From: Candidatus Gastranaerophilales bacterium
GTDB taxonomy: Bacteria; Cyanobacteriota; Vampirovibrionia; Gastranaerophilales; Gastranaerophilaceae
Direction: 5' to 3'
DNA length: 64,000 bases
Assembly: GCA_944322725.1 (NCBI GenBank)
Contig: CALUPU010000008.1
Location: 1-64,000 of the forward strand
Shown: positions 1 through 8,671 of the stretch, in pieces
Position numbering within the stretch: position 1 is the first letter of the stretch
Layout of the letters: every line of letters starts with the position of its first letter
The notes under the pieces: model-generated
Database searches by the model: none
Told to the model about the DNA's origin: nothing
The model's input: the letters and a program-made list of their open reading frames with translations, nothing else
Made by a program: the position numbers and the translations under genes

Positions 1-20
1 ATAAATAGAAAGGAAGGTTT

Positions 21-128
21 ATGCAAAATCATTGGGTATTTATAGACGAAAGCAAAATAGACAGAGCGTTGGAAGAAACCGAGAGGCAGATGAGAGAGAT
101 AACGGTTTATATTATTCACGAGTCATAA
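21..128 (+). pseudogene. Truncated 5' copy of tape-measure gene (unit 1)
   Basis: A 35-codon ORF with a good ribosome-binding site (AGAAAGGAAGG) 5' of ATG 21. Residues 8-26 match the N-terminal segment of the full gene at 1959 (DESKIDRALEE, RQMRE). It then diverges and stops at 126-128, inside the 3' end of the convergent minus-strand gene. The first seven residues differ from the other copies. It could be a dead remnant or a translated small peptide. Confidence 0.6.
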
Positions 129-630
129 TCAACTCGCCCTGTTCGTTGTAGCAATTGTTGCCAATCCAGTGTGCGATTAATTTTTTGTTTTTATTAAAAA
201 CGAATTGTTCTTCTTTTGATACATCAAGAGTTATTGAGTTTAATTCTCCTTTGATATCATAACCAATACGTTTGCTTGGATAATCTTTACCAATATTAAA
301 GTCAATTAATTCAAGTTTGCCATTTGGATTATAATAATAAGAAATTTTAATATTGTTTTTATAAGTGACTGCGTATGAACCATCTGAAAATGATGTTAAG
401 TATCTATTTTTATATTTAGTTTTATTTTTATTAAGGATTTTTTTATTTTTTATATGATTTTTATCACTTAAATAATTCTTGTACTCCTTTATATTTATAT
501 GTATGGCAACATTCGCAAAGGAGATTTGACGGGCGGAATTGACTGTGTAAGAAACACCTCCATTTAATGTGTAACCTGCATTAAAAATTAAAGAAATAAA
601 AAGTATATATATTAAAAGATAATTTTTCAT
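112..630 (-). CDS. Small secreted protein, cassette copy 1 (unknown function)
   Basis: 172 aa. Residues 1-21 form a signal peptide, so the product should be exported. The mature part starts with a conserved block (GGVSYTVNSARQ) and a Lys/Asn-rich middle. The C-terminal half has three short hairpin-like repeats of the form Y-x-NGKL/KGEL/NKKL, recalling MORN-2/YwqK-type repeats, and ends in HWIGNNCYNEQGEL. It is paralogous to the genes at 754 and 1398, with the C-terminus almost identical to copy 2. It lies opposite to the phage late genes with its own promoter, as expected of a lysogenic-conversion (moron) gene. I do not recognise a characterised family. An exclusion, adhesion or anti-defence role is only a guess. 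Confidence 0.75.
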   Translation of the reverse strand: MKNYLLIYILFISLIFNAGYTLNGGVSYTVNSARQISFANVAIHINIKEYKNYLSDKNHIKNKKILNKNKTKYKNRYLTSFSDGSYAVTYKNNIKISYYYNPNGKLELIDFNIGKDYPSKRIGYDIKGELNSITLDVSKEEQFVFNKNKKLIAHWIGNNCYNEQGELIMTRE

Positions 631-636
631 AATCTC

Positions 637-645
637 ATTATAACA
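637..645 (-). promoter_or_regulatory. Extended -10 promoter of cassette gene 1
   Basis: On the minus strand the sequence reads TGTTATAAT (extended -10), with the hexamer TATAAT ending 6 nt before the ATG at 630. This puts the expected transcription start at or next to the start codon, so the mRNA would be leaderless. The same motif and spacing recur in cassettes 2 and 3. Confidence 0.7.
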
Positions 646-661
646 TTAGAAAGGAATTTAT

Positions 662-802
662 ATGGATATAGAAAAAAGAATAAAAAAGATAGACGAAAGC
701 AAAATAGACAGAGCACGAGAAGAAGCCGAGAGGCAAATGAGAGAGACAAAAGTTTATTTTAACTTATTACGAGTCATAATCAACTCACCCTGTTCGTTGT
801 AG
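662..802 (+). pseudogene. Truncated 5' copy of tape-measure gene (unit 2)
   Basis: A 46-codon ORF from ATG 662 with AGAAAGGA upstream. Codons about 10-29 match the tail gene at 1959 (KIDESKIDRA, EEAERQMRETK). The match ends right after GAGAGACAAA, and the frame then runs antisense into the 3' end of the minus-strand gene and stops at 800. The junction lies at nearly the same tape-measure codon as in units 1 and 3. Confidence 0.6.
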
Positions 803-1266
803 CAATTGTTGCCAATCCAGTGAGCAACAAGTTTTTTATTTTTATCAAAGATGAATTGTTCATCATTTTTTAATGTATACATTACTGAACTCAAGTTTCC
901 TTTATTATCATATGCGATGGTTTTTTTAGGGTATTTCTTATTTATACGAAAGGCAATACCTTTTAATTGCCCGTTTTCAAAATATATATATGATAGTTGT
1001 GGATTATTTTTGTAACTTATAGAATATACACCATTTGAAAAGTTTGTTATTTTCGGATTATTAAGATTTTTTTTATGTTTATTAAATTTATTTGAATCTA
1101 TTAAGTAATCAGTATAATCTGACATATTTATTTTATTATTAACATTTTGAAAAGCTTCGTTGCGAGCAGCATCAACAGTATATGATATGCTTCCTTGAAG
1201 CTTATAGGCAAGAACTTCGGAATTGCTAAGAAGAAATAAAACAAATATTAAAATAATTTTTTTCAT
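754..1266 (-). CDS. Small secreted protein, cassette copy 2 (unknown function)
   Basis: 170 aa. Signal peptide at residues 1-20, then LQGSISYTVDAARNEAF, which aligns with copies 1 and 3. The middle is Asn/Lys-rich and variable. The C-terminus repeats the HWIGNNCYNEQGEL block of copy 1 nearly exactly. The conserved Cys in NNCYNE is the only cysteine in the mature region, so an internal disulfide is not expected. Conservation is strongest at the two ends of the protein and weakest in residues about 45-70, which could be a diversifying surface. No catalytic motif is visible. Function unknown. Confidence 0.75.
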   Translation of the reverse strand: MKKIILIFVLFLLSNSEVLAYKLQGSISYTVDAARNEAFQNVNNKINMSDYTDYLIDSNKFNKHKKNLNNPKITNFSNGVYSISYKNNPQLSYIYFENGQLKGIAFRINKKYPKKTIAYDNKGNLSSVMYTLKNDEQFIFDKNKKLVAHWIGNNCYNEQGELIMTRNKLK

Positions 1267-1272
1267 TTTGTA

Positions 1273-1281
1273 ATTATAACA
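1273..1281 (-). promoter_or_regulatory. Extended -10 promoter of cassette gene 2
   Basis: The minus strand reads TGTTATAAT, with TATAAT ending 6 nt before the ATG at 1266, the same geometry as in cassette 1. There is no room for a ribosome-binding site between the predicted start of transcription and the ATG. Confidence 0.7.
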
Positions 1282-1302
1282 TATTAATTAGAAAGGACTG
1301 TT

Positions 1303-1401
1303 ATGACAATTATTGAACTAGAAGGAAATGATAACAACACCAAAATAGACAGAGCGTTGGAAGAAACCGGAAGGCAGATGAGAGAGGCTAGATATATTTA
1401 G
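1303..1401 (+). pseudogene. Truncated 5' copy of tape-measure gene (unit 3)
   Basis: A 32-codon ORF from ATG 1303 with AGAAAGGA upstream. An unrelated leader of about 13 residues is followed by KIDRALEETGRQMRE, matching the intact gene at 1959, then a stop at 1399. The stop overlaps the last codon of the minus-strand gene by a few bases. Confidence 0.6.
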
Positions 1402-1928
1402 TGTGATTTGCGTTTTCCAATCAATTCACCTTTTTCGTTATAACAATTGTCGCCTATCCAGTGAGCGATTAATTTTTTGTTGAGCCCAAAAATATAAGTT
1501 TCATTATTTGATATATCTAAAGAGGTAGAATCCAATTGTCCTGACGCATCATATCTAATACTTCTTCTTGGATATTTACCTAAAGTTGAAAATTCGATAA
1601 GTTTTAATTTCCCATTAGGATAATAATAATAACCGATTTTTTCATTTTTTCTATATGTTATTGAATAACTTCCATCATTAAAGGAAGAAATATAATAACT
1701 TTTAAATTTGAATTTTTTTTTAGTTATATTATTTATGTTCTTTTCATGATATTTATCGTTTAAATAATCACTATATTGGGCTATATCGATATTTTTAGTA
1801 ACACCATCAAATGCTTCTTTTTTTGCACGATTAACTGTATAAGAAACATTTCCTTTAAGAGTAATCGCTAAAGAAGGTGTAAATATTAGATAAAGAAAAA
1901 AGAATAACAGTAAAAATTTTTTAATCAT
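1398..1928 (-). CDS. Small secreted protein, cassette copy 3 (unknown function)
   Basis: 176 aa and the most diverged of the three paralogues. The signal peptide is residues 1-21. It is followed by LKGNVSYTVNRAKKEAF, then FNDGSYSITY, YYYPNGKLKLIEF and YDASGQLDS, and it ends HWIGDNCYNEKGELI. The repeated NGKL/SGQL/NKKL hairpins are clearest in this copy. It faces the intact tape-measure gene head to head: the two start codons are 30 bp apart, separated by this gene's promoter and the phage gene's ribosome-binding site. Function unknown. The paralogy suggests selection for several variants being present together. Confidence 0.75.
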   Translation of the reverse strand: MIKKFLLLFFFLYLIFTPSLAITLKGNVSYTVNRAKKEAFDGVTKNIDIAQYSDYLNDKYHEKNINNITKKKFKFKSYYISSFNDGSYSITYRKNEKIGYYYYPNGKLKLIEFSTLGKYPRRSIRYDASGQLDSTSLDISNNETYIFGLNKKLIAHWIGDNCYNEKGELIGKRKSH

Positions 1929-1933
1929 ATTTA

Positions 1934-1942
1934 ATTATAACA
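1934..1942 (-). promoter_or_regulatory. Extended -10 promoter of cassette gene 3
   Basis: TGTTATAAT on the minus strand, 5 nt before the ATG at 1928. It is the third instance of the same leaderless promoter layout in the array. Confidence 0.7.
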
Positions 1943-1958
1943 TAGAAAGGAATTATTA

Positions 1959-2897
1959 ATGAATGATACAACAAGCAGAAAAATAGACGAAAGCAAATTA
2001 GACAGAGCGTTGGAAGAAGCCGGAAGGCAAATGAGAGAGACAAATCAAAAATTTATCGAAATGTTGCGCGGAATTAGAGAAAACTGGAGAGAGCAGCAGG
2101 CGGAATACAAGTCTTTAGTAAGCTTTTTAAAAGACCAGAATAATGAATTTGATTTTTCTAATTTGCTAAGCGGTGGATATAAAAATCAGAAAAAGCAGAT
2201 ATCGGATAAGTATTCTGCATTAAGAGCGTCTGTTGATTCTGATGATTCTTTATCTCCGGCACAAAAAGAGCATTTTAAAAACAGTTACAATTTTATTGAA
2301 GACAGAGAAACGAAAAAAGCATATGATGACAGCTTTCTGGGTAAAACTACGGAAAAAATGTCAAAAGAGTTTTCTGCAGGTTTGCAGGAGATGATAACTG
2401 GCTACAAAAGCTTTTCTGATGTAATGGAGAGCATGACGACAAGTCTTACTGATTTTATGATAAAGCAATTTTCAGACAAGCTTATGGATGCGATTTTTTC
2501 TGAACAAACTATGAGTGCAGCTTCAGACCTTTTCGGCGGTTTGTTGAACTGGGGTAAAGGCGGGCTGGGTAGTGCTTTCAGCTTTATAGGCGGTTTGTTC
2601 AAACGCCACTCCGGAGGTGTTATACCTTCCGGTGCCAACTATTCGCTGCCGGGTACGCAGGAGCAGCTTGCTCTGTTAAAAGGCGGTGAGAGGGTTCTGA
2701 GTCCTTCTGAAAATGTCAGTTATGAAAATCAGGGAGGAAGTTCTCCTGTTATTGTAAATTCCTTCAATATTAAAGCCTGGGATTCTAAGGATGTAAAACA
2801 GTATTTACTGGAAAACAGGCAGTTATTGAATCAGATAACATATGAAGGAATTAAAAATAACAATGCGCATTTAAGACATATTGTTCAGAATGCATAA
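1959..2897 (+). CDS. Phage tail tape-measure protein, C-terminal-type
   Basis: 312 aa. N-terminal charged helical region (residues 1-60, rich in Arg/Glu), a helical middle with a DUF-like TTSLTDFMIKQFSDKLMDAIF stretch near residue 165, then a Gly-rich segment (about 195-215) and the end typical of lambda-type tape-measure C-termini: RHSGGVIPSG followed by LLKGGERVLSPSE. Tape-measure proteins set tail length and can enter the host envelope. At 312 residues this is far shorter than a whole tape measure, so the gene may be the distal part of a split protein. ATG 1959 has AGAAAGGAA upstream. Its first 25 codons are the segment duplicated three times upstream. Confidence 0.7.
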   Translation: MNDTTSRKIDESKLDRALEEAGRQMRETNQKFIEMLRGIRENWREQQAEYKSLVSFLKDQNNEFDFSNLLSGGYKNQKKQISDKYSALRASVDSDDSLSPAQKEHFKNSYNFIEDRETKKAYDDSFLGKTTEKMSKEFSAGLQEMITGYKSFSDVMESMTTSLTDFMIKQFSDKLMDAIFSEQTMSAASDLFGGLLNWGKGGLGSAFSFIGGLFKRHSGGVIPSGANYSLPGTQEQLALLKGGERVLSPSENVSYENQGGSSPVIVNSFNIKAWDSKDVKQYLLENRQLLNQITYEGIKNNNAHLRHIVQNA

Positions 2898-2916: not shown

Positions 2917-3288
2917 ATGAAAGAAAAAATGGAACAGCTGCTTGCTGAGATTGGACGTCCTTATGAAATGTTTAATGTTGATGGAACATATCAGGGGTGT
3001 TTTTATCCCGTGCAGTGTTTATACCCCAACAAGCCAAGATATAAGCTTCGTTCAAAAGATGATGACAAAAACTACTGGTATGGTTTATCTAAAGTAAAAA
3101 AACATTGTAAAGAAATCTCCCCTTCTGAATTAGCAGAGGGGGATATTATTATAACGAAATTTCGGGATGAACTGCACGCCGCAGTTTACTTAAAATTTGG
3201 CAAAATTATTCATGTGTTTAGAAACCACACGCTTCAAATAGGTCGATTGAAGATGTTTAAAGAATACAAGTGTTTTAGGGTGGTATAA
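2917..3288 (+). CDS. NlpC/P60-like phage tail-assembly protein
   Basis: 123 aa. A Cys at about residue 27 (QGCFYP) and a later His in DELHAAVYL, followed by GKIIHVF, resemble the Cys-His core of NlpC/P60 peptidases found next to tail-tip proteins (lambda K-like). The usual DCSG around the nucleophile is not preserved, so activity is uncertain. The gene is preceded by AGAAAGGAA and ends one base before the tail-tip gene. The position between tape measure and J-like protein supports a tail-tip role, possibly cutting peptidoglycan during DNA entry. Confidence 0.6.
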   Translation: MKEKMEQLLAEIGRPYEMFNVDGTYQGCFYPVQCLYPNKPRYKLRSKDDDKNYWYGLSKVKKHCKEISPSELAEGDIIITKFRDELHAAVYLKFGKIIHVFRNHTLQIGRLKMFKEYKCFRVV

Positions 3289-5736
3289 ATGGCAATATTT
3301 ACAGCATTAGCGGGTGCAATTACAGCAGGTTTTTTTTCAATTGCCGGTTCTTTAGGTGCAGTTTTAGCAACATCAACTTTTGCAGCGGTTGGAACGATTA
3401 TAGGATACGTAGGTGCAGCTTTAATATATGGCGGCATAGCGCTATCCATAACAATGCTATCTATTAATAAAGGAAATTATGGTAATTTATCACCAACATA
3501 TAAAGGTGTTTTGCAAACACAGACTGACCAGAATCTGCCGGTTCCTCTTTTATACGGTACATGCAAGCTTGCGGGCAACCGTGTATGGCAGGATGAGAAC
3601 GGACAGGTTACTGTTAAAAGAATTGTTGCTTTTGCAGAGGGTGAAATATGCGATTTTTCGGATATTAAGCTTAACGACATACCTCAAAATGAAATTGCAG
3701 GTATTTCCGTAAAAAAATACTACGGAACTCCGGATCAGGAGGTAGATGATATAGTAGGCGGTGCAAATCAAAGTGAACGCGTTGAAAAAGTAGGATCTTT
3801 AAAAAACATTGCATATCTTGCTGTTAGTGTACCGAGAAGCTACAAAATCGATATTAACTACAACCTTACAGCCGTTGTAAAAGGGCGAAAAATTAGGGTT
3901 TATAAAAATAAATACGAATACGAAATAAAATATTCGGAGAATCCTGCCTGGATTATGTTTGATTTCTTAACCTGCTACAACGGTCTTGGTTTGTGTATCA
4001 AAAATGACGGCAATATCAGCGAGGATTTAATCGATGAATTATTTGATTTAGAGAGTTTTATCGAGTCTGCTGCTTATTGCGATGAATTGATTGAATATAA
4101 GCACAAAGACGAAGACGGAAATGATATCACAGAGATGGTTCCCCGTTTTACCTTTAATATGATATTCGATTCACAGACCTCGGCAAGAACTCTTATGGAT
4201 GAAATTTATCGTTCCTGCAGGGGCGGTTTATTTGTTAAAAACGGCAGGCTGCAATTTAAGATTGATAAAGCTGAATTTGTAAGCAAGGTATTTTCTGCAG
4301 ATGATATCATAAAAGGCTCTGAGACTTTTGAGTGTATCCCCAAAGAGGAGCATTATGACATTCTTAAGTGTACATTTGTATCTCCCGATCATGAATGGCA
4401 AAAGGTTGAAGCTACAGCAGAAATACCTGAATACAGAGACGGTGTGCCTATTGAACACAGTGTAAATATTTACAGCTGTACATCATTCAATCAGGCATCA
4501 AGGCTTGCATGGTATTACGTTAATGCCAAGATTTTACAGCCTTATTTCGGCAGTTTTCAGACGGATTACAGGGCGTATGATCTTGAGGTCGGCGATGTAA
4601 TTGCTATAGACAGTCTGCTAATGGGATTGGATAACTACAAAGTTAAAGTTACAAGTATTTCCGATGACGGTACAGGTGTTTATACTGTAAACTGGCGCAC
4701 ATATGATGAGCGTCTTTACTCTGATGAACTCGGAAGTAAAGAACCTAGGGTTCTTGTAAGTTCGCTTGCTGATATAGCGGCTTATCCTGACGATGTGAAA
4801 AACTTTAATGTTGTGCAGTCCAATAACCTGTTTAATTTTGTATGGGAACTCAATCAGGATTCTACAGATACTTATGAAATCAGGATGGGTGATACATGGG
4901 AAAGTGCATTTGTTATCAAGTCCGGCATTCGTGAAAACAAATTCTCTTATGAAATTCCCTCAAGCGGTTTATATAAATTTTGGATAAAGGCTTTTAACAA
5001 ATACAATTATTCACAAAGTGCAACTCTTGATGTTATTTCCGTAGACAGTGTTCCGAGTTTGAATGAAATCGTGAAGCTGGATATTCTTGATGATATATCA
5101 GGGATTCTTGAGGATACTTTAAAGGTTTACAGGAAAACTATCAAGATAAAAGCACAGGATATAAAGTGGCATAATTTAGACGCTCCCTGGCGCAATAATG
5201 AAGGCTATTATCAGACAGCAGGAAGATGGGGATGCTCTGTTCTTAAGGGCGGTACATACATAAGCCAGACTTATGATATTGGGGCGGTTCTTGAGAGTAT
5301 AGTGTCTTTTGATTACAAATACACTTCATCTGATTCACAGAATCTTGTTACTGTGGAGTGGTCATACTCTGATGATAACATTAATTTTTCTGACTGGGCG
5401 CTTGCTAATTCCGGCAAATATACTTTCAGATATTGTAAATTTAGAGTAACTCTTACTTCCTATAACGGGGTTCAGGTTGTTTTAACAGATTTTCTTGTTA
5501 ATGTCGATGTCCCTGATAAAGATCTGGATATGGAACTTGAGATAACTGATACACAGGGGCTGCGTATAGATTACAACTTTGTCAGACCCCCATCTATTGT
5601 TGCAACAGTAAATGATAACAATGATGCTTACATAGTTATCACGGAAAAGACAAATACTTATGCTTATATCAAGGCTTATACCAATGCAGGGGAGTTGACA
5701 ACCTGCAAATTAAGTCTTAGAGCGAAAGGCTATTAA
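3289..5736 (+). CDS. Phage tail-tip / host-specificity protein (gpJ-like)
   Basis: 815 aa. The N-terminus (residues 1-62) is a hydrophobic Gly/Ala-rich stretch, followed by a region (about 65-450) with the pattern of tail-tip attachment proteins (VPLLYGTCKLAGN, a folded core, then LEVGDVIAIDS). A fibronectin-like beta domain lies at about 500-600 and a further beta-rich region at 640-815. It would form the central tail tip that contacts the host surface. The start directly abuts the stop of the preceding gene, implying translational coupling. The length is shorter than lambda gpJ but within the range of related siphophage proteins. Confidence 0.65.
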   Translation: MAIFTALAGAITAGFFSIAGSLGAVLATSTFAAVGTIIGYVGAALIYGGIALSITMLSINKGNYGNLSPTYKGVLQTQTDQNLPVPLLYGTCKLAGNRVWQDENGQVTVKRIVAFAEGEICDFSDIKLNDIPQNEIAGISVKKYYGTPDQEVDDIVGGANQSERVEKVGSLKNIAYLAVSVPRSYKIDINYNLTAVVKGRKIRVYKNKYEYEIKYSENPAWIMFDFLTCYNGLGLCIKNDGNISEDLIDELFDLESFIESAAYCDELIEYKHKDEDGNDITEMVPRFTFNMIFDSQTSARTLMDEIYRSCRGGLFVKNGRLQFKIDKAEFVSKVFSADDIIKGSETFECIPKEEHYDILKCTFVSPDHEWQKVEATAEIPEYRDGVPIEHSVNIYSCTSFNQASRLAWYYVNAKILQPYFGSFQTDYRAYDLEVGDVIAIDSLLMGLDNYKVKVTSISDDGTGVYTVNWRTYDERLYSDELGSKEPRVLVSSLADIAAYPDDVKNFNVVQSNNLFNFVWELNQDSTDTYEIRMGDTWESAFVIKSGIRENKFSYEIPSSGLYKFWIKAFNKYNYSQSATLDVISVDSVPSLNEIVKLDILDDISGILEDTLKVYRKTIKIKAQDIKWHNLDAPWRNNEGYYQTAGRWGCSVLKGGTYISQTYDIGAVLESIVSFDYKYTSSDSQNLVTVEWSYSDDNINFSDWALANSGKYTFRYCKFRVTLTSYNGVQVVLTDFLVNVDVPDKDLDMELEITDTQGLRIDYNFVRPPSIVATVNDNNDAYIVITEKTNTYAYIKAYTNAGELTTCKLSLRAKGY

Positions 5737-5752
5737 ACTAGAAAGGATTTTT

Positions 5753-6913
5753 ATGGACAACACAAAAAACTATGAATGGACGGACAATCCGACCATTCAT
5801 GAATCTTCGTGGTGTGATACGGACATTCTTAATGAGTGTCTCATGCATCTTAAATACAACAACAATAACGGCGGCGGGTTTAACCTGTTTGACACTAAGG
5901 TTACCGACCATATTTTAACAGGTGATGAACTTGTCGGCTGGGCTCTTCAAGGTTCGATGATTACAAAAACATATCCTGATGCAATAGAAAAAATTAAGGA
6001 ATTGTACAATGACGGACTCGAGATAGAATACAGGGGTGTTGCCTGCCGCCGTTCAATAGACGGACGATATATTGCTGATATAGCACAAAAAGAGGCTGTT
6101 GATGAAGTATTTGAAAAGACAGGTATTGCTGATTTTTATATTCTGGATTCCGTAAACGAATATGTTTATCTTCCGAGAAATAAATGGTTTGCGCAGTATA
6201 CTCTCGAAACAGACCTTCTAAACAACTTCAATGCGCCCGGACTACCAAATTTAGATGGCAACTCAACAATCTACATGCTTGGTGATGAACCTCTTTCCGG
6301 TTGTTTTAAACACGGGCACAGTAATAGCGGATGGTCTTTAGGTCAAAGAACAAGCAGTGCGGATACTTATTTGAATTTAGATGCATCTGTGTCAAACTCT
6401 TTATACGGAAAGTCTGACACTGTTCAAATCTCATCCAGTAACAAACTTCTTTATTACAAAGTCGGTAATGTTGTTAACAATGACAGCAGTATTGATGTAA
6501 GTCAGATGATAACAGATTTGCAGACTAAGTTAAATCTTGATTTACAAAACGCAACTGCAGCAGGAAAATCATTTATTGGTTCACAGGCTATGCCGTCGGG
6601 CAAATACATAGACCTTACGCTTGGAGCAAGCAGAGACACTTACACGGCGCCTGATGACGGGTATATTTTATTTAAAAAAAATCCTACCGCCTCTAGTCAG
6701 TTTATAGCTATAGAAAGTCCGGCAAATAATCTTCAAATTTCAGTATATTCAACACAAAACAGCGGAGGTATTGCAGTATATTTACCGGTTAAAAAAAATT
6801 CGGAATTTACTGTGAGATATTCAATGGCAGGAGAAACAGACTATTTCCGTTTCATCTACGCACAGGGAAGTGTTCCGGCTTCAACAGAAAATACGGAGGC
6901 ACAAAATGACTAA
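5753..6913 (+). CDS. Phage tail fibre / receptor-binding protein
   Basis: 386 aa. The N-terminal third (YEWTDNPTIHES) probably attaches to the tail. The middle contains YVYLPRNKWFAQ, a motif I associate with gut-phage fibre proteins, then a Ser/Asn-rich region and a beta-rich C-terminus (from about 270) that looks like a small jelly-roll type binding domain. No enzymatic motif is seen. ATG 5753 has AGAAAGGAT upstream. It overlaps the next gene by 8 bp. It is the likely determinant of host range, by position. Confidence 0.55.
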   Translation: MDNTKNYEWTDNPTIHESSWCDTDILNECLMHLKYNNNNGGGFNLFDTKVTDHILTGDELVGWALQGSMITKTYPDAIEKIKELYNDGLEIEYRGVACRRSIDGRYIADIAQKEAVDEVFEKTGIADFYILDSVNEYVYLPRNKWFAQYTLETDLLNNFNAPGLPNLDGNSTIYMLGDEPLSGCFKHGHSNSGWSLGQRTSSADTYLNLDASVSNSLYGKSDTVQISSSNKLLYYKVGNVVNNDSSIDVSQMITDLQTKLNLDLQNATAAGKSFIGSQAMPSGKYIDLTLGASRDTYTAPDDGYILFKKNPTASSQFIAIESPANNLQISVYSTQNSGGIAVYLPVKKNSEFTVRYSMAGETDYFRFIYAQGSVPASTENTEAQND

Positions 6914-7478
6914 TTATTACATAGAAAAAGAAAACAAAATCGTACTTTTTGATACAAACAAACAAAAACTCATTTCAACGCTGGGCTTTATGCCGCAGTA
7001 TAAAGGCTTTGAGATACAACAGACCGATAAAGAAATAATTGAGCGAGACGGCGGGTTTGTGTTTGTTGAGGATGTGACAGACGAGCTTCTACAGGAGGCG
7101 AAGGAAATGAAGCTTGCCCAAAACAAAGAAGCATATGAAGCAGCACTGAAATCAGGCGTCACATACAAAGGCTCACTTTTTGACTGTGATACGCTTGCTG
7201 CTGTTCGTGTAATGGGGCAAATGGCTGCAATGCAGGCAATGGCTATAGAGGAAGAGCCGGCAATAGACTGGTTTAATTACAATTATCAGCCGGTTACACT
7301 TACAATCCCTGAATTTATGGAACTTGCGGGTTTGATTACGCTTAACACGCGTCGTATTGAGACGCTCAATTGCGGATTCAATACTGCTATTGAGGCGGCT
7401 GCAACATTTGAGGAACTGGATGCTATAACTGTTGATTATACTGAAAACAAAGAGGAAAGCGAGGAAAGTAATGAATAA
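6906..7478 (+). CDS. Phage tail-fibre-associated protein, DUF4376-like
   Basis: 190 aa from ATG 6906, chosen because it has AGGCAC upstream and overlaps the fibre stop in the compact phage style. The C-terminal half (VTYKGSLFDCDTLAA, DWFNYNYQPVTLTI, then a helical LAGLITLNTRRIE) matches the pattern of DUF4376, commonly encoded behind tail fibres and thought to help fibre assembly. The C-terminus is highly acidic. It overlaps the following holin-like gene by 8 bp. Confidence 0.6.
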   Translation: MTNYYIEKENKIVLFDTNKQKLISTLGFMPQYKGFEIQQTDKEIIERDGGFVFVEDVTDELLQEAKEMKLAQNKEAYEAALKSGVTYKGSLFDCDTLAAVRVMGQMAAMQAMAIEEEPAIDWFNYNYQPVTLTIPEFMELAGLITLNTRRIETLNCGFNTAIEAAATFEELDAITVDYTENKEESEESNE

Positions 7479-7671
7479 AATTATTCAAACAATATTAAAA
7501 TATCTGGGACAGTCAAGTACTTACAAAGGTTTATTTTCTGTTCTTGCCGCTTTCGGGTTAGTTATGAAACCCGAACTTGCGGATGCAATTATTGCCTGTG
7601 CTCTTGGAATTATCGGGCTGATAAATGTTCTTGTTGATGAACATTCTGTTAAAGACGGAGTAAAAATCTGA
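7471..7671 (+). CDS. Holin-like small membrane protein
   Basis: 66 aa from ATG 7471 (GAGGAAAG upstream). A short amphipathic N-terminus is followed by two hydrophobic segments (about residues 19-33 and 36-52) and a charged tail (DEHSVKDGVKI). Size, topology and a position just before the endolysin suit a phage holin or holin partner. Its stop overlaps the next start (TGATG). Confidence 0.6.
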   Translation: MNKIIQTILKYLGQSSTYKGLFSVLAAFGLVMKPELADAIIACALGIIGLINVLVDEHSVKDGVKI

Positions 7672-7910
7672 TGTATGCTTCTTTAGTCGCAGCAGTGAGC
7701 AATTTGTTTGCAAAGCTTTTTGAATTTAAAACTGTACAGGTGGAAAATATGTCTACACTTGAGGTTATAGATGATAAAAAGGACTATAAAAAAGCAACAA
7801 ATATTGCTGAAAAGATAATAGACATTGCAGAAAAATATAAACCTGATATGACTTTTGCACACAGACTGAGATTTAGTCATCTTGTACAGAGTTTTAAAAG
7901 ATTTAATTAA
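7671..7910 (+). CDS. Small phage protein of the lysis module, unknown
   Basis: 79 aa. The start overlaps the holin stop. A mildly hydrophobic N-terminus (SLVAAVSNLFAKLFEF) is followed by a charged helical C-terminal half (ATNIAEKIIDIAEKY). I do not recognise the family. Location between holin and spanin-like genes suggests a lysis or tail-completion role, by context only. Confidence 0.5.
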   Translation: MYASLVAAVSNLFAKLFEFKTVQVENMSTLEVIDDKKDYKKATNIAEKIIDIAEKYKPDMTFAHRLRFSHLVQSFKRFN

Positions 7911-7920
7911 GGAGGGTTGT

Positions 7921-8187
7921 ATGGATAAAATTATTGAATATGCACCAATAATCCTTGTTATTATTATATTTTTTGTACAATACAAAATTTTTGTTACTCC
8001 GGCTCAGCTATCTGCTGTGAAATCCGATTTAATTGAGTATATAGCAGAGCATTATGTTTCTGAGAAAACATACAGAGATAACAATATCAGTCTTGAAAAC
8101 AGGATAGACAGAATAGACAAGAACGTGAACGATGTAAAGACACTACTTATAAGCATTGTCCAGTGGCATGGCAATCCTAATAATTAG
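7921..8187 (+). CDS. Membrane-anchored coiled-coil phage protein (spanin/XhlA-like)
   Basis: 88 aa from ATG 7921, directly behind the strong ribosome-binding site GGAGGG. One N-terminal transmembrane helix (residues 8-24) is followed by a soluble region with heptad spacing (ISLENRIDRIDKNVNDVKTLL). This layout matches inner-membrane spanins (Rz-like) or hemolysin-XhlA-type lysis proteins. The family cannot be settled without a profile search. Confidence 0.5.
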   Translation: MDKIIEYAPIILVIIIFFVQYKIFVTPAQLSAVKSDLIEYIAEHYVSEKTYRDNNISLENRIDRIDKNVNDVKTLLISIVQWHGNPNN

Positions 8188-8215
8188 TACTTTGTAGGTT
8201 TTTAGCGGAGGAAAA

Positions 8216-8671
8216 ATGGAGGAATTATTTAAAAAGGCACTTGACTTTGTGCTGAAATGGGAGGGCGGCTATGTCAACAATCCGCACGATAGAGGCGGAG
8301 CAACAAACAAAGGCATCACACAGTATACCTACAATGCGTGGCTTAAAAGCAAAGGACTTGCCAATAGGGATGTTCGATATATCACACAGGATGAGGTTGA
8401 GCAGATTTATTACAAGAACTACTGGCTTAAAGCCGGGTGTGATAAGATGTCCCCGAAATTTGCGCTACTGGCTTTTGACACAGCTGTCAACATGGGTTTA
8501 GTTCGTGTAAATCAGTTTTTGAAGGCTGCTCAGTGGAAATATCCCGAAAAATTTATAGAAGCACGCCGTGCAAAATATCTTGAATTTGCTAAATACGGCA
8601 ATCAAAAGATATTTTTGCAGGGCTGGCTAAACAGATTAAATGCCCTTTCTACACAAATTGCTAAAATCTAA
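8216..8671 (+). CDS. Phage endolysin, GH108-type N-acetylmuramidase
   Basis: 151 aa. The N-terminus carries the family signature KWEGGYVNNPHDRGG-TNKGIT, whose Glu in WEGG is the catalytic acid. The C-terminal half (FDTAVNMGLVRVNQFL, ARRAKYLEFA) is the paired peptidoglycan-binding part. It cleaves the glycan backbone of peptidoglycan during lysis. There is no signal peptide, so release depends on the holin. It is the last gene of the phage late operon, followed by a terminator 17 bp on. ATG 8216 has GGAGG upstream. Confidence 0.85.
   Translation: MEELFKKALDFVLKWEGGYVNNPHDRGGATNKGITQYTYNAWLKSKGLANRDVRYITQDEVEQIYYKNYWLKAGCDKMSPKFALLAFDTAVNMGLVRVNQFLKAAQWKYPEKFIEARRAKYLEFAKYGNQKIFLQGWLNRLNALSTQIAKI

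Follow-up and report, generated by a model that had tools for sequence, protein, structure and literature searches.

A tandem array of secreted-protein genes and tape-measure gene 5' ends in a phage-like element of Gastranaerophilales, possibly a bank of displaced immunity genes

The window analyzed here, a 64,000-nucleotide stretch of contig CALUPU010000008.1 from a Candidatus Gastranaerophilales bacterium, begins at the contig edge with a tandem array belonging to a phage-like element. Within the first 2 kb, three units, each carrying a gene for a predicted secreted protein (SP), are followed by a complete gene for a tape-measure protein (TMP). In each unit, a ribosome site, an ATG, and about 25 TMP codons precede a minus-strand SP gene whose product is about 170 amino acids long. 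Four copies of the TMP 5' segment, at positions 24-103, 671-750, 1312-1391, and 1965-2044, form direct repeats with a period of 641 to 653 bp. This confirmed the original prediction, made from the sequence of the window, that TMP 5' ends and secreted-protein genes are arrayed in tandem and that the intact tail gene is the fourth repeat. The three upstream copies matched the local TMP gene with E values of 3e-20, 1e-25, and 3e-20, far past chance. Furthermore, AGAAAGGA, the ATG, and an open frame are retained in every copy; the frames opened by successive copies begin MQNHWVFIDESK, MDIEKRIKKIDESK, and MTIIELEGNDNNTK, and that of the intact TMP begins MNDTTSRKIDESK.

The first TMP 5' fragment (positions 21-128, plus strand) has a Shine-Dalgarno sequence at 7-14, an ATG, and a 35-codon open reading frame (MQNHWVFIDESKIDRALEETERQMREITVYIIHES, then a stop) and is 90% identical to TMP nucleotides 25-85. 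It is followed by SP1 (112-630, minus strand), which encodes a 172-amino-acid protein with a Sec-type signal peptide, recognized by inspection, and without a Pfam or PHROG family. An extended TATAAT -10 box (TGTTATAAT) lies at 637-642 on the minus strand, a placing that would put the mRNA start at the ATG, and SP1 is thus predicted to be leaderless. In the second unit, the TMP fragment (662-802, plus strand; Shine-Dalgarno sequence just upstream, AGAAAGGA, then ATG and MDIEKRIKKIDESKIDRAREEAERQMRE) precedes SP2 (170 amino acids; 754-1266, minus strand), which has its TATAAT box at 1273-1278 on the same strand. In the third, the fragment (1303-1401, plus strand; MTIIELEGNDNNTKIDRALEETGRQMREARYI, then a stop) precedes SP3 (176 amino acids; 1398-1928, minus strand; TATAAT box at 1934-1939, minus strand), for which the AlphaFold2 model (pLDDT, 92) contains N-terminal helices and then a beta meander. 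The final unit is the full-length TMP-like gene (1959-2897, plus strand), which encodes a short tail protein of 312 amino acids and occupies the customary tape-measure place after the tail chaperone. Its match to phrog_2335 (tail length tape measure; 7e-7) covers the C-terminal part, 1252-1419 of 1536. When the SP genes of the window were compared, the final 25 or so codons were 80% identical and the remainder 57 to 63%; of the predicted pattern of conserved ends and a variable middle, the conserved 3' end was borne out and the other end was not.

The array probably continues to the left of the window, as had been suspected, because the end of contig C6 of the same genome carries, in order, genes for the tail tube, the small and large terminase subunits (TerS and TerL), and the chaperone, then a start-less TMP fragment, an SP pseudogene with one stop, and a further TMP start. 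C6 and the window contig probably lie on either side of a single array that is broken by an assembly gap. Over 232 bases near its end, C6 shows 97% identity to window positions 1155-1386, owing to a recent duplication or else to the assembly.

To place the array in context, relatives, mostly or all metagenome-assembled genomes in which contig edges often cut arrays, were searched with SP3. Matches were found in 44 of 59 genomes, the named ones being mostly Candidatus Gastranaerophilales, with tandem clusters of up to 8 genes. Arrays of 2 to 8 SP genes parted by TMP 5' copies were present in 14 of the 23 genomes of the genus to which the window belongs, and they sit between the tail chaperone and TMP wherever one contig carries both. 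A 40- to 290-bp copy of the local TMP 5' end lies in nearly all gaps between SP genes, whichever the SP orientation; the exceptions are locus L039 and one gap of L038. Arrays with TMP copies are present in related genera too (L065 and L066). Thus, the predicted repeated duplication of SP plus TMP 5' end at one site, building a bank of diverged and putatively exported proteins, recurs in numerous genomes, the largest banks having 8 units. Single SP genes without a TMP copy were seen at four loci (L062, L070, L073, and L091) and look like the starting state. SP genes are either opposed to TMP, as in the window, or co-directional with it, and their reading frames are intact almost everywhere. At L083 (G004:C76, positions 744-2061), co-directional and opposed SP genes stand in one array, with a 134-bp TMP copy between them that is 100% identical to the local TMP.

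The repeat unit is a mosaic. A cassette comprises the variable SP part, the TMP ATG, and the first 8 to 20 TMP codons, and a conserved block runs from about TMP codon 8-20 into the nearer SP part, which is the SP 3' end in opposed arrays and the first 75 or so SP codons in co-directional ones. In co-directional arrays, these first codons are mostly 90 to 100% identical and the sequence beyond them 44 to 79%; the drop near SP codon 75 falls close to the first beta strand, at residue 78 of the AlphaFold2 model. TMP repeats in one array are 93 to 98% identical while its SP units differ strongly, and TMP repeats between opposed arrays of related type are 70% identical. Repeat identities between arrays of the A2 and B1 groups, which came from unaligned coordinates, were set aside. 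The proposed breakpoint just after RQMRE holds in the window but is local, since TMP copies in other genomes end anywhere from nucleotide 63 to nucleotide 300. Homologous recombination explains the array pattern. Site-specific insertion was considered and rejected, as the flanks of the window units contain no long inverted repeats and, in the open reading frame lists, none of the genes next to the array stood out as a recombinase, although no search aimed at recombinases was made.

Cassettes have moved between species. Variable SP halves are common to different species at 92 to 100% amino acid identity, whereas siblings in the same array are often 35 to 60% identical. The C half shared by G019b and G016b has a nucleotide identity of 99% (98% when third positions are taken alone), compared with 85% (62%) for the host gene hldE. 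To measure linkage, SP pairs with an identity of at least 0.65 were compared with 5,000 shuffles within arrays; the SP variant and the TMP start were co-inherited, with a mean start similarity of 0.63 versus 0.31 after shuffling (0 of 5,000 shuffles as high; P < 0.0002). Several cassettes occupy an internal position in one species but are joined to the full-length TMP in another, for example, G019a:5985 versus G016b:6946 and G010:4803 versus G001:6759, and cassettes therefore switch between stored and active positions. Amplification at one site was correctly foreseen, but the idea of a bank growing by duplication needs amending, as its diversity is not mainly local: cassettes cross species boundaries and shift position within arrays.

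Whichever way they point, most SP genes of the arrays lack a Shine-Dalgarno sequence and carry, 11 to 13 nucleotides before the ATG, an extended -10 box (TGnTATAAT or a close variant). This arrangement predicts leaderless transcription of each SP gene from its own promoter, independently of the late phage genes. The box is not shared by chromosomal SP paralogues. One such paralogue (L054:6603-7139) is single-copy, lies between rplT and a biotin-ligase-like gene (both neighbors named from their sequences), and is 66 to 92% identical across the genus. The SPs carry a Sec-type signal sequence by inspection; those of the window lack a lipobox, with no cysteine at the cleavage region (e.g., ...FTPSLAITLKG), and no anchor motif was seen. 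SP may be periplasmic. The profile and structure searches suggested by the original prediction yielded no known family: sequence profiles gave a weak match to Rhs/YD-type repeats (4.6e-5), and fold searches gave weak OspA/MORN-like matches only (best E, about 0.004 to 0.01). Neither SP nor TMP had a match in 50,697 records of isolate phages. In IMG/VR, four contigs carried TMP, and a pattern scan for SP returned 0 matches, yet L114, L116, and L117 do contain SP genes. On the IMG/VR contig L117 (8363-11091), an SP gene on the opposite strand overlaps the 3' end of a gene for a 727-amino-acid TMP, a link between SP and TMP outside the genus.

The element that houses the array encodes a portal, a scaffold, a major head protein, connectors, the tail tube, TerS, TerL, the chaperone, TMP, NlpC/P60, J, a fiber, holin-like proteins, and a GH108 lysin. 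In the window, the rest of the tail and lysis module (2917-8671, plus strand) comprises NlpC/P60, a J-like hub, a tail fiber, holin-like genes, and the GH108 endolysin. TerL was found in 22 of the 23 genomes of the genus, as one copy in 21 of these 22, and was 83 to 90% identical in amino acids for nearly all. It is more conserved than the host gene hldE (median distance, 0.118 versus 0.205), with a dN/dS of about 0.04 at a dS near saturation. TerL divergence follows that of the host only loosely (Mantel r = 0.29; P = 0.0005), and some species pairs show exchange; plain vertical inheritance of the whole element was rejected for some pairs, whose TerL and SP are more alike than their host gene is. 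Several left ends of the element adjoin the same 182-amino-acid gene (MADMVKRF...). The term "prophage" is too simple for an element that almost always occurs as one intact copy and is found throughout nearly the whole genus. These features suit a domesticated element, a candidate gene transfer agent (GTA), with gene exchange between species also apparent. A literature search on Gastranaerophilales prophages or GTAs found nothing relevant. The chaperone-SP-TMP module is present twice in some genomes. In three cases (L057/L048 on G001:C15, L038/L062 on G013:C13, and L042/L043 on G019:C11), one contig bears two separate TMP genes, each with its own SP gene or genes ahead of it where the contig extends that far.

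The element also holds accessory genes in which differing N-terminal domains (Lipase_3, GH108, DUF6973, and others) are joined to a common C-terminal tag of about 85 amino acids (...YTRSDGTKVxSYYRSRP). The tagged proteins, at L053:2065-3081, L061:17752-18864, L081:6503-7606, L060:7429-8322, L057:4551-5669, and L062:2651-3679, are candidate polymorphic effectors of the phage-like element and may be toxins. A second array on the minus strand consists of three to four tandem paralogues of a hydrophobic protein of about 145 amino acids (MKLDLYAPKKxYGTH...), at L061:16448-18864, L038:12740-15190, and L071:6149-7819; at the first two of these loci, the array sits immediately upstream of a class-3-lipase-like gene that belongs to the element. 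Together, the tagged genes and the hydrophobic-protein array look like effectors with protective genes.

We propose, with somewhat less than even confidence, that in this phage-like, near-core element the SP array serves as a bank of displaced immunity or exclusion genes. This reading is preferred mainly because effector-like genes are present with apparent protective genes alongside. The active unit would be the last one, in which the SP gene adjoins the start of the working TMP. To judge from the mosaic pattern, a new cassette would enter by homologous recombination, for which the conserved TMP 5' segment would supply one arm, and replace the working TMP start. The displaced SP would then remain upstream, intact, with its own promoter and a stub of the old TMP. 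SP would be made independently of the late phage genes and exported, and it might shield the cell from same-family particles or from cargo of theirs that acts in the periplasm; older variants would protect against relatives still bearing the older type. Candidate targets of SP are TMP, the tail tip, or a tagged effector. Serial displacement has the best support as a mechanism, and the same logic has been published for Vibrio cholerae type VI secretion system (T6SS) arrays, in which orphan immunity genes arise by sequential displacement (PMC5361080). Of the roles first suggested for the array, exclusion or immunity fits best, anti-defense sits poorly with the predicted export of SP, and surface variation is a less likely role. 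A fuller version, in which the bank of kin-protection proteins updates itself, the core particle of gut Gastranaerophilales delivers tagged envelope-acting effectors, and the TMP 5' end both supplies the recombination arm and contributes its variable first codons to a recognition code, appears improbable.

Several observations weigh against an immunity bank. Apart from scattered weak matches, searches of Pfam, PHROGs, NCBIfam, and PADLOC gave no known family for SP, neither an immunity nor an exclusion family; its fold matches are only weak, and the SP family has a further role beyond the element, given its conserved single-copy paralogue in the host chromosome. A Pfam search found no toxin domain in TMP. 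The TMP part that travels with SP is only 8 to 20 residues and lies in a region predicted with low confidence (the TMP model, with a mean pLDDT of 47, was not interpreted), and the linkage between SP and the TMP start may be mere contiguity, which alone is no proof that SP recognizes TMP. Finally, no TMP pieces accompany the tandem SP genes of L039, and in a related element type (L107, L110, and L116), SP stands beside a different tail gene.

Three other explanations were weighed. The Ltp lipoproteins of Streptococcus thermophilus phages such as TP-J34 mediate superinfection exclusion and are reported to act on incoming TMP (PMC3952083); similarly, a periplasmic SP might bind incoming TMP and stop DNA entry, with SP and the TMP N terminus co-evolving. 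SP does adjoin TMP in nearly all loci of the genus and in the phage-like contig L117, and the SP variant and TMP start are inherited jointly. However, joint inheritance of so short and contiguous a segment requires no interaction, the TMP C-terminal region on which Ltp is reported to act (PMC3952083) is conserved here, and SP has neither a lipobox nor a match to an Ltp-type family; we regard exclusion aimed at TMP as unlikely. It also seems doubtful that the element is a mere carrier of variable exported proteins that the host expresses for its own benefit, as adhesins, decoys, or antigens, with the TMP 5' end as a convenient recombination arm. SP is bound to the tail genes of this element across genera, shows no anchor motif, and shares the element with effector-like genes and a hydrophobic-protein array, even though the promoter motifs of most array SP genes, the conserved paralogue beside rplT, and the weak resemblance of the beta meander to OspA, MORN, and Rhs repeats would all suit such a surface bank.

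The array would be a neutral by-product if illegitimate duplications arose at a recombination-prone TMP 5' end and were homogenized by gene conversion, with SP number unselected. The fragmentary TMP stubs and variable breakpoints are in line with this. We consider it very unlikely, as SP frames are intact almost everywhere and promoter motifs are kept, amplification occurred with different breakpoints and in both SP orientations, and variants are common to several species.

If the displaced-immunity reading is true, kin-protection arrays of the T6SS type also arise at phage tail genes, and the sequence of the array would record which particle types came before. A largely uncultured gut lineage would then keep a core phage-like weapon or gene-transfer particle, with specificity cassettes traded between species, and tape-measure proteins could be tested directly as exclusion targets.

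The locus resembles several known systems in part. Like Ltp, SP is a small, putatively exported phage protein; unlike Ltp, it has no lipobox, is located at the TMP gene, and is arrayed. The tagged proteins recall the MuF polymorphic toxins of temperate phages (PMC5576092), in which varied toxin-like domains are joined to one constant domain; the MuF constant domain is N-terminal in one description (PMC12226406), whereas the constant part here is the C-terminal tag on separate proteins. As with GTAs (PMC11150451), the phage-like cluster rarely exceeds one copy per genome and is found in almost the entire genus, its terminase appears, at a dS near saturation, to be under strong purifying selection, and head, portal, terminase, and tail genes are kept (22 of 23 genomes; single TerL in 21 of 22). 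Unlike GTAs, the element has genes that recombine between species and extra effector-like genes; packaging of host DNA and an inability to replicate itself would be putative traits. In comparison with T6SS orphan immunity arrays, the partner is a tape-measure gene of which only the first 8 to 20 codons are exchanged, rather than a toxin, the stubs are 5' rather than 3' ends, and immunity would be the putative function. The anatomy is nevertheless alike: a row of 2 to 8 intact variable SP genes in tandem ends in one full partner, the complete TMP, stubs of displaced partners lie in nearly every gap as TMP 5' copies, and array variants have an active partner elsewhere and are shared with other strains by horizontal transfer.

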